From Caulobacter sp. Root1455 (lineage in GTDB: Bacteria > Pseudomonadota > Alphaproteobacteria > Caulobacterales > Caulobacteraceae): a DNA stretch of 64,000 nt. The DNA lies in assembly GCF_001426905.1 (NCBI RefSeq), contig NZ_LMFQ01000009.1, positions 105-64,104 of the forward strand, in the 5' to 3' direction. Under the pieces are notes generated by a model. That model was not told the DNA's origin, ran no database searches, and was given only the letters and a program-made list of their open reading frames with translations. The position numbers were made by a program, and so were the translations under genes. Positions within the stretch are counted from its first letter, which is position 1, and every line of letters starts with the position of its first letter. Below, piece by piece: positions 11,650-61,569 of the stretch.

Positions 11650-11696
11650 GGGGCCTAGATGCGGGTTTTTTGACAAGACACAAGAGGTTTGGTGCG

Positions 11697-11827
11697 GCGA
11701 ACGCTTGCCCCCTACGGGTCGCTTCGCGACCGTCTTCCCCCGGAGGGGGAAGAGGAAGGCGCGCGTCCTCCGCCCCCTGTGGGGGCGGACAGGCGGCCAA
11801 GCCGCCAGGTGGGGGCAAGTGTTCGCG
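11697..11827. repeat. Composite palindromic repeat, copy 2 (inverse of 125-267)
   Basis: The whole element is the reverse complement of the one at 125-267: CTTGCCCCCTAC start, GGTCGC-ttc-GCGACC stem, CCCCCGGAGGGGG hairpin, CCCCCTGTGGGGG hairpin, GGCGGC-caa-GCCGCC stem and GGTGGGGGCAAGTGTTCG end. Compared with copy 1 the two inner stems differ on both sides in compensating fashion, so the hairpins are conserved as structures. It lies just upstream of hisD. Confidence 0.8.
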
Positions 11828-12388
11828 GGCACGACTTCACAGGCACGGCTCTTCGACCTCGGGCTTTCGCGACGAGTGGCTGGGGAGGCGCGGAGCGGTC
11901 CGGGCCCAGCCCGGATGACCGTGGGTGTTGTGTGTGCGTTTCGGCTAGACCTGACCGCTCCGCCGAACCGTTTTTACCGAGGGACGGCGATTGAGGGCTT
12001 GTTTCATCCCGATCGACGTTCCCCCTCGGGCGGGCAGGATCAGGTCGCCCGGAAGGGGCCGTCGGCGACTCCGACAGATCCTGGAACAGGCCGGTTTGAC
12101 TCCCGGCCCCGTCGACCCCGGCTGTCCCGCGTTCGCCCGCCCCGGGCCTTGGATCCTTCTGAGACCCGCCGCCCAAGCCGACCCGCCCGCCAGGCCAGCC
12201 AGGCCCCGCTCGGTTCGATCCCCATCGCCTGCTTGGGCCGGTACCAAGAGCCCTCCCCCGCGATGGGGACGGGTTTATTGTGCAGGAGGTTTGAGCGCTG
12301 GCGCGTTCGTGACGCTGATTATTTTGCAGGGCGTTGGAAGGGTTCAGGTTTCTCGCGGGGCCGGCGGGGATGGACGCCGCTCGATCCC

Positions 12389-42687: not shown

Positions 42688-42794
42688 GCGAAAACCTCGT
42701 CCTTCGACAAGCTCAGGATGAGGTTTTCTACCGCTCAGGCCTACACAATGGTCCTCATCCTGAGCTTGTCGAAGGACGAGGACCACGCACGGCG
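42688..42794. repeat. CCTCGTCCTTCGACAAGCTC palindromic repeat, copy 1
   Basis: 29-bp arms at 42695-42723 and 42753-42781 are perfect inverted copies, flanked by GCGAAAA and CCACGCACGGCG. Other copies are at 54727-54831, 59781-59867 and, in part, 61553-61569. It fills the gap between the kinase gene and the convergent GH2 gene and may act as a terminator for both. Confidence 0.9.
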
Positions 42795-54364: not shown

Positions 54365-54697
54365 ATGAGCAACCACCAGGACCGGCCCCTCGCCTTCCGC
54401 ATGCAGTTGAAACCCGGCGTCGCCGCCGAATACGAGCGCCGTCACGACGACCTGTGGCCCGACCTGGCCGCCGCCCTGCGCAAGGCAGGGATCCACGACT
54501 ATTCGATCTTCCTCGACGAGGAGACGATGAGCCTGTTCGCCGTGCTGCGCCTGCGCCCCGTCAACACCAAGGACGCCCTGCCGCTGGAGCCGGTGATGAA
54601 GCGCTGGTGGGACTACATGGCCGACCTGATGGAGGTCCACCCGGACAACAAGCCGGTCGAATGGCCGCTGAAGCCCGTCTTCTACTTCGAGGGCTAG
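54365..54697 (+). CDS. rhaM: L-rhamnose mutarotase
   Basis: 110 residues. The family is recognised from LAFRMQLKPGVAAEYERRHD, LWPDLAAALRKAGIHDYSIF and the C-terminal KRWWDYMADLMEVHPDNKPV with the active-site His and Trp pair. RhaM interconverts alpha- and beta-L-rhamnose. The GGGAGG-type site (gggaggacacg) precedes the ATG. Its stop is two bases before the ATG of the GH43-GH35 gene. Confidence 0.93.
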   Translation: MSNHQDRPLAFRMQLKPGVAAEYERRHDDLWPDLAAALRKAGIHDYSIFLDEETMSLFAVLRLRPVNTKDALPLEPVMKRWWDYMADLMEVHPDNKPVEWPLKPVFYFEG

Positions 54698-54699
54698 GG

Positions 54700-57600
54700 A
54701 TGTCGCGCCAGCCCTTCCGCGCCATCGCGAAAATCTCGTCCTTCGACAAGCTCAGGATGAGGTTTTCGACCGCAACCCCTGCAAATGGGTCTCATCCCGA
54801 GCCTGTCGAAGGACGCGGGCCACGCACGGCGCTCGCCGATCGATGCGCCCTTGGCTTAGCCGCCACGCTGCTGGCGACCACCGCCCCCATTCAGTCGTTT
54901 GGGGCCGAGCCCGTGCGCTACACGATGACGGCGTTCACCAACGCCAGCCAGTCGAACATGAGCGTCTACGACTCGGCGGACGGGACGCGCTTCACGCTGA
55001 AGAAGCCGCTGGCCTACACCCCGCCCAAGGGTTTGATCCGCGACCCCAGCGTGATGCGGCATACGGACGGTTGGTATTACGTCGCCTACACCACCGGCTG
55101 GTCGGGCGACACCATCGGCCTGGCCCGCAGCCAGAACCTGACCGACTGGACCTTCCTGCGCGATGTGACGGTGGAAGTCCCCGGCGCGACCAACAGCTGG
55201 GCGCCGGAATGGTTCGCGGATCGGGACGGCTCGGTGAATCTGATCCTGTCGGTGTCGACCACCGGCATCGCCGGCCAGTTCCAGCCCTATCGCATCACCG
55301 CGACTGACGCCTCGCTGGCGACCTGGAGCGCGCCCAAGCCGCTGGCGGGCCTGGGGCCCAACTTCATCGACACCTTCGTGGTGCGCGAGGGCGGGCTCTA
55401 CAACGCCTTCGCCAAGAACGAGACCAGCAAGTTCGTCGAGCTCTACACCGCCCCGTCGCTGGACGGGCCGTGGCAGCCAAAGGGCGTGGGCGACTGGGCC
55501 GGCTGGGGCAGGTTCCTGGAAGGCCCCGCCCTGAGCCGCGCGCCCGACGGCGCCTGGCGGATCTATTTCGACGCCTACCAGGACAAGCGCTACTGGTTCA
55601 GCGACAGCAAGGACGGCTTCCGGACCTGGACGCCGAAGACCGAGCTGCCGGAGCTGTCCGGCACGGTGCGCCACTTCACGGTGCTGAAGGAAGGCGGCGA
55701 ACCGGCCGTCGCCGCCAGGCCCGCCCCAGTCCATCAGATCACCTGGGACAAATACTCGCTGAAGGTCGACGGCGAGCGCGTCTTCTCGTGGGGCGGCGAG
55801 TTCCACCCCTTCCGCGTGCCCAGCCCCGACCTGTGGCGCGACATCCTCCAGAAGATGAAGGCCAGCGGCTACAACACCGTCGCCATCTATTTCGACTGGG
55901 GCTACCACTCGCCGAAACAGGGGGTCTACGACTTCAACGGCGTGCGCGACATGGACCGCGTGCTGACCATGGCCAAGGAGGAAGGCCTCTACGTCATCAC
56001 CCGCGCCGGGCCCTATGTGAACGCCGAGCTGACGCGCGGCGGCTTCCCCGGCTGGATGGTCAACCAGCAGGCCCGGGCCCGCACCGACGCGCCGGAATAC
56101 CTGACCGCCGCCGACGAGTGGCTGACCCAGATCAACGCCGTCATCGCCCGCCACCAGTTGACCACCGGCCAAGGCACGGTGATCGCCCACCAGATCGAGA
56201 ACGAGCTGGACGTCGTCGGCGCCCCGCAGCAGCGCTACATGCAGTGGCTGGACGACAAGGCCAAGGCCGACGGGATCACGGTCCCGATCTTCCATAACGA
56301 CAAGGGCCGCAACGGCTATTGGGTCCCCAAGGGCTCCAACGTGCCGGGCACGGTGGAGGGGCCCAACGACCTATACGCCTTCGACGGCTATCCCGGCGGC
56401 AGCTGCAAGGTCGACTCCACCCCCTCCAGTCCCGGCGTCGCGCCCGACTGGGGACTGTACGGACCGGGCGGGGCCAAGGGCGGCGCCTCGGCCAGTCCGA
56501 ACACCCCCGGCTTCGCGGCCGAGTTCGGCGGCGGCTGGTTCGACTACTGGGGCAGCAACGGCGACTACGACTGCACCGCCATCCATCGCGGCGTCGGCTA
56601 CCAGCGGGTGTTCTACGCGACCAACATCGCCAACGGCATCACCCTGCAAAGCTTCTACATGACCTATGGCGGGACCTCGTGGGGCTGGCTTCCGGCCCCG
56701 GTGGTGTTCACCTCCTACGACTACGGCTCGGCGATCGACGAGGCCCGGGGCCTGCGCGACAAGGCCCGGGTGATGAAGCAGATGGGCGAGTTCGTCGCCG
56801 CCGTCCCGGACATCCGCCGCATGGACAAGGGCGAGGCGGTGGCTCCGTCCAACGACAAGGTCCGTGTCTATCACAACGTCAATCCGGAGACGGGCAGCCA
56901 CCTCTATGTGGTGGTCCACAATCCCAGCAGCGCCACCGGCGACGAGGCCTTCACCTTCAAGGTGAAGACCCGTGACGGCGAGTACGTGGTCCCCTCGCGG
57001 ATCAAGGGCCAGGACAGCAAGATGCTGATGGCCGGCTACGATCTGGGCGGCCAGCGGCTGGTCTATTCGACGTCCGAGATCCAGACGCACCTGAAGTGGA
57101 ACGACGGCGACCTGGCCCTGCTCTACGGCCGCGTCGGCGAGGCGGGCGAGACGGTGCTGCGTTATGCGTCCTCCCCAAAGGTCGAGGTGCTGGAAGGCGA
57201 GGTCGCCCAGGCGTTCGACGCCGCCAAGGGCGATCTGAAACTCACCTACACCCACAAGGGTCTGACCCGCGTGCGGATCACCGGCGGCGGACGCCCGTCC
57301 CTCACCGTGCTGCTCGCCGACGCCGAGACCGGCCAGACCTTCTGGCGCCGCGACACCTTGTTGGTGCGTGGCCCGGGCCTGGTCCGGAGCGACACGATCA
57401 AGGGCGGCGTGCTCAGCCTGACCGGCGACACCGAGACCGACAGCCCGCTGGAGGTCTTCGCGCCCAGGGCGGTGACCGCGATCCGCTGGAACGGCGCCAA
57501 GGTCGCGGCCAGGACCACCGCCTCGGGGAGCCTGCTGGCCGACAAGTCCCTGGCGGGACCGGCGGCCGTGACCGTGCCCGACCTCGCCACACTCGACTGG

Positions 57601-59765: not shown

Positions 59766-59780
59766 AACTCGGCGCGCGGT

Positions 59781-59867
59781 CCTCGTCCTTCGACAAGCTC
59801 AGGATGAGGACCATTGCCGGCGCCGGGAAGTAGAAAAACCTCATCCTGAGCTTGTCGAAGGACGAGG
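59781..59867. repeat. CCTCGTCCTTCGACAAGCTC-type repeat, copy 3
   Basis: Perfect 29-bp inverted arms at 59781-59809 and 59839-59867 between the GH105 and symporter genes. The in-frame extension upstream of the symporter ATG is made of this repeat, which is why that start was not used. Confidence 0.9.
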
Positions 59868-59938
59868 TTTTCGTCCCAGCGGCCGGACGTAACACCAAGA
59901 CGGGGCTTCAGACCCTGTCCCAAAGGGAAGAGACGACG

Positions 59939-61516
59939 ATGGCGACGCCGGACATCCGCAAACCCTCCTGGGTCACCTACTGGAGCTGGGGTTCCGGCGA
60001 CATGCTGGGAGCCGGGGCTCAGGCGGTCATAACCGGCTGGCTGGCCTACTTCTTCATCACCTTCTGCGGTCTGTCGGCGGTCGAGACGGGCCTGATCCTG
60101 GGCCTGCCGCGACTGCTGGAAGCGATCACCTGCCCGCTGATCGGCTACATCTCGGACAACCTGCGCCACACATGGGTCGGGCGGCGCATCGGCCGACGCA
60201 AGATCTTCCTGATCGTCACCATCCCGCTGCTGCCCGCCTTCGCCCTGATCTTCGTCACGGGCCAGACCTTCACCTACTACCTTCTCACCTTCGTCTTCTT
60301 CGAGTTCCTCTACACGATGTTCCTGATCCCGTGGGAAACCCTCGCGGCAGAAATGACTAAAGATTACAAAGAGAAGGCCAAGTTCGCCGGCGTGCGGATG
60401 CTGATCGCCCAGAGCTCGGCGATCCTGGCCTCCTACCTGCCGACCCTGATCATCAACCACTTCGGCGGCAAGGATTCGTCCGGCACCTTCCTGATCATGG
60501 CGGCGATCTTCGGCGGCCTGTTCAGCCTAGTCGTGCTGCTAGTGGTGCTGTTCACCTGGGAGCGGCCCTATACCGAGGCCGAAAAGCTGATCCAGCCCGA
60601 GCCCATGGACTGGGCCAAGGCCGCGCTGATCCCGGTCAACATGTTCCGCGACCTGTTCTCGACCCTGCGCATCAAGGCCTTCCGCCAGCACCTGTCGCTG
60701 TATCTGGGCGGCTATATCTCGCAGGACATCTTCAACACCGCCTTCCCCCTGTTCGTGGCGACGGTGATGATGGGGGCCACCCTGGTGATCTCGCAGTTGA
60801 TGACCACAATGTACGTCGCCCAGCTGATCTCGGTGATGATCGCCATCAACGTGGTCATCCGCACCGGGCCCACCGTCGCGTACCGCATGGCCATCAGCTT
60901 CGTCGGCGCGGCCCTGCTGCTGTTCCTGGCCTTCTACCTGATCCGGCCGGCGGGCTTCGCCGAGGGCCCGACGGCCCTGGGCGGCAACCTGTTCGGCGGC
61001 GGCGCCTCGCCGACCGTGCTGTTCTGGCTGTTCGTGCCGATCATCCTGGCGGGCCTGGGCCGCGGCACGCTGAACTTCGTGCCCTGGAGCGTCTACAATT
61101 ACCTGCCCGACGTCGACGAGGCCGTGACCGGCCAGCGCCGCGAGGGCATCTTCGCCGGGGTGATGACCTTCGTGCGCAAGATCGCCCAGTCGGGGGCCAT
61201 CGTCGTCACCACCTCGCTGATCGGCCTGGGCGGCTATATCTCCGCCGACAAGGCCCATCCCGGCGTGGCCGTGGTCCAGTCGCCCGAGGCGGTGCGCGCC
61301 GTCGTGCTGGTGATGGTCGGCGGGCCGATCCTGGTCATGCTGTGGGGCCTCTGGATGTCGTGGTCCTTCCGCCTGAACGCCCGCACGCATGAGGTCCTGA
61401 TCCACGAGGTCGAACGCCTGCGCGCCGGGGCCACCGAGGCCGAGAGCGACGAGTCCAAGGCGATCGTCGAGAACCTGACCGGTTGGCGCTACGAGCGGCT
61501 GTGGGGGCGCGGGTAG
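59939..61516 (+). CDS. MFS transporter, glycoside-pentoside-hexuronide:cation symporter (GPH) type
   Basis: 525 residues from ATG at 59939 with AAGGGAAGAG upstream. Twelve hydrophobic segments. The GPH pattern includes YWSWGSGDMLGAGAQAVITG and LGLPRLLEAITCPLIGYISD, followed by WVGRRIGRRKIFLI, and later IPWETLAAEMTKDYKEKAK, a typical cytoplasmic loop. In the second half RREGIFAGVMTFVRKIAQSG is characteristic. Placed after GH105, it most likely imports unsaturated rhamnogalacturonan disaccharide or L-rhamnose. Confidence 0.92.
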   Translation: MATPDIRKPSWVTYWSWGSGDMLGAGAQAVITGWLAYFFITFCGLSAVETGLILGLPRLLEAITCPLIGYISDNLRHTWVGRRIGRRKIFLIVTIPLLPAFALIFVTGQTFTYYLLTFVFFEFLYTMFLIPWETLAAEMTKDYKEKAKFAGVRMLIAQSSAILASYLPTLIINHFGGKDSSGTFLIMAAIFGGLFSLVVLLVVLFTWERPYTEAEKLIQPEPMDWAKAALIPVNMFRDLFSTLRIKAFRQHLSLYLGGYISQDIFNTAFPLFVATVMMGATLVISQLMTTMYVAQLISVMIAINVVIRTGPTVAYRMAISFVGAALLLFLAFYLIRPAGFAEGPTALGGNLFGGGASPTVLFWLFVPIILAGLGRGTLNFVPWSVYNYLPDVDEAVTGQRREGIFAGVMTFVRKIAQSGAIVVTTSLIGLGGYISADKAHPGVAVVQSPEAVRAVVLVMVGGPILVMLWGLWMSWSFRLNARTHEVLIHEVERLRAGATEAESDESKAIVENLTGWRYERLWGRG

Positions 61517-61552
61517 GCTCTAGAGCGTTCTACTTTCAGCGCCGCGCTTGGT

Positions 61553-61569
61553 CCTCGTCCTTCGACAAG
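61553..61569. repeat. Truncated copy 4 of the CCTCGTCCTTCGACAAG repeat
   Basis: CCTCGTCCTTCGACAAG followed directly by GTTTTCGCC: the left arm only, joined to sequence resembling the flank of the right arm. This looks like an internal deletion of a full repeat. Confidence 0.7.

Follow-up and report, generated by a model that had tools for sequence, protein, structure and literature searches.

How does a dispersed palindromic repeat come to lie, in frame, within the export signal of an enzyme, and what does it mean for the gene that carries it? This question is raised by a probable secreted glycosidase gene in the 64,000-nucleotide stretch of Caulobacter sp. Root1455 DNA analysed here (the window). 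The enzyme has a GH43-like N-terminal part and a GH35 beta-galactosidase part (Pfam Glyco_hydro_43, E 2e-9; Glyco_hydro_35, E 1.5e-78), and the stop codon of its upstream neighbour, rhaM, ends 2 bp before its ATG at 54700. Nine codons from this ATG (54700-54726) are followed, in frame, by a 105-bp repeat stretch (54727-54831) that translates as AKISSFDKLRMR...HPEPVEGRGPRTA. In our opinion it is probable that a non-autonomous REP dimer settled after the rhaM stop and has been tolerated in frame in the signal peptide of the glycosidase.

The insertion itself is evident from orthologues. We used a set of 75 genomes of the genus, to which G-numbers refer, G000 (5.08 Mb) being the window's own genome. 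A whole-protein search matched 36 of the 75, some solely through the repeat-encoded residues; the enzyme part is contained in 27 of the fetched loci, and the 5' end is readable in 24 of these (it is unreadable in L034, L035 and L037). The comparison of orthologues proposed in the earlier note, which was made from the sequence alone, found 22 of the 24 readable 5' ends empty, with an ordinary predicted signal peptide, and two filled, those of G000 and G010, at the same place. The two filled ends are loci L011 and L012. The relatives G031, G059, G019 and G017 are all empty at this site. The claim that a palindromic element was inserted in frame in the signal-peptide region is thus borne out, the orthologues being empty there and the frame being open.

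The size of the insert follows from the distance between the end of rhaM (TTCGAGGG) and the conserved TAFTNAS motif, which is 242 bp in G000 and G010 versus 116 bp in the empty G019 and G059 (95-131 bp across the 22 empty loci). Hence the insert measures 126 bp; because GCGCC is present at both junctions, its ends can be placed only to within 5 bp. The earlier note had claimed an insert of exactly 105 bp after nine codons; a conserved core of that length is indeed found there, but the full insert is 126 bp long and follows the eighth codon. The right-hand tail included in it reads CTCGCCGATCGATGCGCC, and this pattern, searched with zero mismatches in the 75 genomes, occurs only at the insert sites of G000 and G010. 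Without the insert the N-terminus has the length seen in G019 and G059 (MSRQPFRALGLAATLLATTAPIQSFGAEPV versus MIRPPFHALGLATILLATTAPVQSLGAEPV), in agreement with the claim that its deletion restores a standard signal peptide.

Table 1. Positions, in the window, of the features discussed; loci of the second secreted protein are listed by handle
Feature	Position	Strand	Basis or remark
L-rhamnose mutarotase rhaM, upstream gene	54365..54697	+	Pfam PF05336, E 2.4e-28
Likely Shine-Dalgarno GAGGG for ATG 54700, within last rhaM codons	54689..54693	+	
Host gene, probable secreted glycosidase, 1302 aa	54700..58608	+	ORF list, Pfam
Whole inserted stretch, 126 bp = 42 codons	54724..54849	+	24 readable orthologues compared at their 5' ends
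105-bp core, shared by other repeat copies	54727..54831	+	repeat alignment
Left REP arm, 29 nt	54734..54762	+	
Right REP arm, inverted	54790..54818	+	4 mismatches to left arm, 28 positions compared
Right-hand tail of the element, not in empty orthologues	54832..54849	+	orthologue comparison
Signal peptide, native hydrophobic stretch with probable cleavage region (LGLAATLLATTAPIQSFGA)	54850..54906	+	sequence, orthologues, hydropathy
Other repeat copy, perfect 29-bp arms	42688..42794	+	outside genes by codon score
Other repeat copy, perfect 29-bp arms	59774..59880	-	outside genes by codon score
Second secreted protein, 5' ends	L250 (G019), L254 (G005), L256 (G061), L257 (G064)		

Does the ribosome read through the insert? 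We infer that translation begins at ATG 54700. A GAGGG lies six bases upstream of it, is found at 24 of the 24 readable loci, and is likely to serve ribosome binding for this ATG; in the 22 empty orthologues the start, ATG or GTG, lies 5-9 nt past the rhaM GAGGG (in one of them, L020, a TTG too overlaps the start place). Ahead of the hydrophobic stretch ATG 54700 and ATG 54757 are the only in-frame ATG, GTG or TTG codons, so an exported product should carry at least part of the insert. ATG 54757 has an AGG directly adjacent to it, which would be poor spacing. The earlier note had suggested that the true start might lie after 54831. This does not hold, as the next usual in-frame codon is GTG 54913, past the hydrophobic stretch, and only the rarer codons CTG 54868, CTG 54871 and ATT 54889 lie between it and ATG 54757. 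Nor do the repeat-free orthologues start at another codon, an outcome that the note had considered; they start at the equivalent of 54700.

It could still be argued that the N-terminus is wrongly assumed, that translation starts downstream and that the repeat does no more than form a hairpin in the 5' UTR. Excerpts of Di Nocera et al. (PMC3733652) propose such starts for many N-terminal REPs, and G010 has a TTG right before its hydrophobic stretch. In G000, however, the absence of an in-frame ATG, GTG or TTG from the insert to the end of the signal region makes a start after the insert appear unlikely, and both the starts of the empty orthologues and the GAGGG shared by all readable loci point to ATG 54700. 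We therefore judge this explanation very improbable.

Why should a repeat be at this place at all? The repeat is dispersed, as the earlier note said: copies matching 54727-54831 occur at two further places in the window, one of them inverted, and many more are present genome-wide, with controls close to zero. A BLAST-type search of the whole genome gave at least 80 matches at E <= 0.001, with 40 of 118 candidates scored, and the closest copy among the matches listed, self aside, has 87% identity (E 2.5e-29). Arms with up to 3 mismatches number 95 + 96 in the G000 genome (1 + 0 in a backwards control) versus 52 exact dimers (control 0), so head-to-head dimers predominate, and this abundance is far beyond chance. 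Across the genus at least one exact dimer occurs in 23 of the 75 genomes, and G010 has 71. A lone half-arm of the repeat lies at 61544-61569, soon after the end of the ORF 59852-61516. The window also holds a different inverted repeat pair (112-276 and 11689-11838, 11.4-11.6 kb apart), whose arms of 80 and 67 nt are 88% complementary.

The surroundings were examined for 65 dimers, those of the window and of 58 of the 60 stretches fetched from the G000 genome (L089 and L092 yielded none); they are a subset, the genome holding more arms. Genes around them were assigned by a simple codon score trained on the window ORFs. Thirty-one dimers lie between converging genes, 31 are in tandem arrangement, none lies between diverging genes and 3 are unclear, as raw counts without a baseline of intergenic space. 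Of the gene ends that face a repeat, 94 in all, 88 have a stop that ends in the range from 53 bp ahead of the core border to 4 bp past it (6 are outliers), and the median stop is 23 bp ahead of the core, again as a raw value. The core of the window copy begins 29 bp past the rhaM stop, which is inside the usual range.

On these grounds a simple course of events can be proposed. A non-autonomous REP-type dimer, that is two inverted palindromic arms with tails, would have inserted about 30 bp past the rhaM stop, which would be a usual place for this repeat. Because the next gene begins 2 bp past that stop, the element would have fallen into a signal peptide, landing after the eighth codon of the glycosidase. 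With 126 bp, a multiple of three, and no stop codon, it would have kept the reading frame; the n-region of the signal peptide would tolerate extra hydrophilic, net basic residues, and the gene would have survived, its start still at ATG 54700 and its predicted signal peptide grown from 27 to about 69 residues. The inserted residues are hydrophilic with a net charge of +3, and the hydrophobic stretch has been left intact, its best hydropathy over 11 residues being 2.16, compared with 2.12 in G019 and 2.10 in G059. The element would have to be mobile, or to have been so; export presumably tolerates the insert, and an n-region of this length presumably functions. Long signal peptides are known.

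Such survival in frame should be rare, since the length of the core is divisible by three in only 6 of the 65 dimers. A preliminary frame scan found 5 of the 65 own dimers open throughout, all five having a stop within 13 codons upstream; the glycosidase copy (54741) was not flagged by it, as its upstream window crosses rhaM. The final scan of contexts is passed by 2 of the 65, the copy at 54741 and L078, where the start is at the edge, and by L220 and L229 among foreign loci that had been picked for open frames. A signal-like stretch after the arm is seen in 2 of the 65 G000 dimers (54741, and L098, where a start separates the stretch from the repeat), in 0 of 35 dimers of G010 and 0 of 10 of G015, in 3 of 48 picked dimers (L217, L229 and L246, with a start in between in L217 and L246), and in 5 of 6 dimers at five loci previously known to be positive.

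How old is the insert? In a tree of 102 aligned repeat sequences, drawn from G000 and G010 with one copy entered twice, the two inserts form a sister pair (bootstrap 99). However, a clade of G000 and G010 is rejected both by the tree of the glycosidase body (AU p 0.0156) and by that of rpoB (AU p 0.00265; 22 of 23 genomes, G038 being without a match). The presence of the insert is thus patchy and discordant with the gene and rpoB trees. This counts against our explanation in that, the two carriers not being sister species, either repeated clean loss or an old exchange is needed. The pattern is compatible with an old insertion followed by several clean losses as well as with an old exchange of a short tract, and an exchange of this kind between the two lineages is possible. 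An assembly artefact is disfavoured, a second genome having the same insert. Independent insertions are disfavoured too, given the sister relationship of the copies and the tail unique to both, and recent transfer is not favoured, as the inserts differ by 13.5% and the gene bodies by 8.8%.

The kind of differences is informative as well. Between the two inserts 17 of 126 positions differ, without any indel or stop; they fall 3/7/7 on the three codon positions, 12 in amino-acid-changing codons and 5 silent. In the body of the glycosidase (1226 codons) 324 positions differ, distributed 70/49/205 (Fisher p 0.077 for codon-position bias, insert against body). Because 205 of the 324 differences are at third positions, the body is under selection at the protein level. 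The inserted peptide has no sign of selection and, having no third-position bias, may be decaying.

Could the insert nevertheless have been co-opted for regulation, with the lengthened n-region or a hairpin past the start adjusting the enzyme's amount or route? The RNA of the insert does fold strongly (-60.6 kcal/mol, z -4.75), starting 24 nt past the start codon, and such a fold could hinder translation; besides, the insert was kept in frame in two species in spite of its divergence, and in G010 the copy has remained an exact dimer (G010:C1:1806452-1806522). We nevertheless find a regulatory role unlikely, in view of the spread of differences over all three codon positions, of the arms of the window copy, which with 4 mismatches are among the four most mismatched of the 65 G000 dimers, and of the 22 orthologues without the insert. 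A further proposal, that the protein is exported poorly and that the allele is on its way out, would agree with a signal peptide stretched to about 69 residues and with an inserted peptide that has no sign of constraint; it is very improbable, however, for a gene whose body is open from TAFTNAS over 1226 codons in G000 and 1230 in G010, with mostly third-position differences between both carriers. The tolerated dimer, in our preferred explanation, is probably close to neutral and not a regulator.

What we describe is a clean case of an intergenic repeat that has been incorporated into an export signal, filled and empty orthologues being present within one genus. A simple reason suggests itself: repeats settling just past stop codons would enter the following gene wherever genes lie close together, and the n-regions of signal peptides may be a safe harbour for them. 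It also makes testable whether a 42-residue extension of the n-region, or a strong early hairpin, changes secretion.

The glycosidase may have a counterpart. At a picked locus of G019 the repeat lies directly before the hydrophobic stretch of another, small secreted protein, which has only a sub-threshold Pfam match (Adhesin_E) and is encoded beside a gene that we take to be murC. Thirty orthologue loci were fetched, and four carry the element in the signal region (G019, G005, G061 and G064); in the other 26 a search for a short exact arm motif, which degenerate copies could escape, was negative. In G005, G061 and G064 the frame is closed a few codons upstream by a stop, the ATG is in the spacer, inside the element and 7 nt past the GAGG of the left arm, and the right arm encodes RPHPE(L/P)VEG ahead of the hydrophobic part. 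In G019, unlike these three, the frame is open farther upstream. A quick tree places all four copies together with a single further copy (support 0.979). It is tempting, although we regard it as somewhat doubtful, to see the Caulobacter REP dimers as portable N-terminal modules of secreted proteins, which gave an extension to the glycosidase and GAGG, ATG and n-region to the second protein. If this were true, the left arm would supply a Shine-Dalgarno-like GAGG, the spacer an ATG and the right arm the n-region of a functioning signal peptide in three species, and a fourth species carries the element at the same place in the second protein.

The repeat is a head-to-head REP-type dimer. In intact copies each arm folds by itself with an 11-nt loop; its stem spans 8 bp when the 27-nt core is folded and 13 bp when 39 nt are, and the whole element folds as a single long hairpin. 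Outer inverted ends within 2 mismatches of ATCGACATTC...GAATGTCGAT are found on the left in 17 of the 65 copies, on the right in 21 and on both sides in 10 (0.36, 0.42 and 0.0 with shuffled flanks), and the complete element may be larger and MITE-like. In a subset of copies (e.g. L073, L080) outer inverted ends read TAGGGCTGATCGACATTC...GAATGTCGATCAGCCCTA. Rfam gave no match at E <= 1 for 54600-54950, plasmid records nothing beyond a 31-bp match in two Rhizobium records, and a literature search on the repeat DNA and its peptides nothing relevant. With REPIN/RAYT systems the repeat shares an inverted pair of REPs that recurs as a unit in many copies; it differs in that the G000 genome has no match to the Y1 transposase PF01797 (RAYT) at E <= 0.001, by a search that was positive in Caulobacter vibrioides. 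In the genus 23 of the 75 genomes have dimers, 22 have PF01797, the only family searched, and 5 have both (Fisher p 0.42). Mobilisation by RAYT is thus unsupported, PF01797 being absent from the G000 matches and not tracking the dimers.

A closer likeness is to the CGTC-tagged REPs, which, according to excerpts of PMC3733652, are found mostly in alpha-proteobacteria, C. crescentus being a named carrier, form head-to-head dimers, have no dedicated transposase and lie near gene 3' ends, with some copies within ORFs and at N-termini and an unpaired terminal tag, CGTC or else TGTC or CCTC, on a stem that begins A-T. The repeat is like them in its hosts, in forming dimers and in lying close to 3' ends, as judged by description rather than by comparison to consensus sequences. 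The right arm here reads CCTC-ATCCTGAGCTTG..., with a CCTC that pairs with GAGG in the fold and hence is not unpaired. Since the stated loop size differs (4-5 nt, on a stem of 8-9 bp, in those excerpts, against 11 nt here), we say that the Caulobacter repeat appears to resemble CGTC-tagged REPs and do not file it as a proven member.

Published work, as far as excerpted, already describes repeats within genes, at N-termini and inside one predicted signal peptide. In-frame insertions of MITEs are described for Coxiella in PMC5896051, in the searched text of which insertion into a signal peptide is not mentioned. The RU-2 repeat, in excerpts of its description, likewise places repeat-encoded residues inside a predicted export signal; it belongs to another family and forms a hydrophobic residue cluster, whereas the Caulobacter insert is a hydrophilic n-region. 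The likeness to the protein-coding palindromic elements of Rickettsia (RPE) that the earlier note drew is well founded. Excerpts of PMC3733652 and PMC10969869 describe RPE as palindromic repeats in frame in unrelated protein genes, the N-terminal ones being reportedly expressed. Sequence and size are different, and RPE, by these excerpts, are frequent in ORFs, while here there is one clear case among 65 dimers; both have in common an in-frame insert in an ORF together with orthologues free of the repeat, here two filled and 22 empty of 24.
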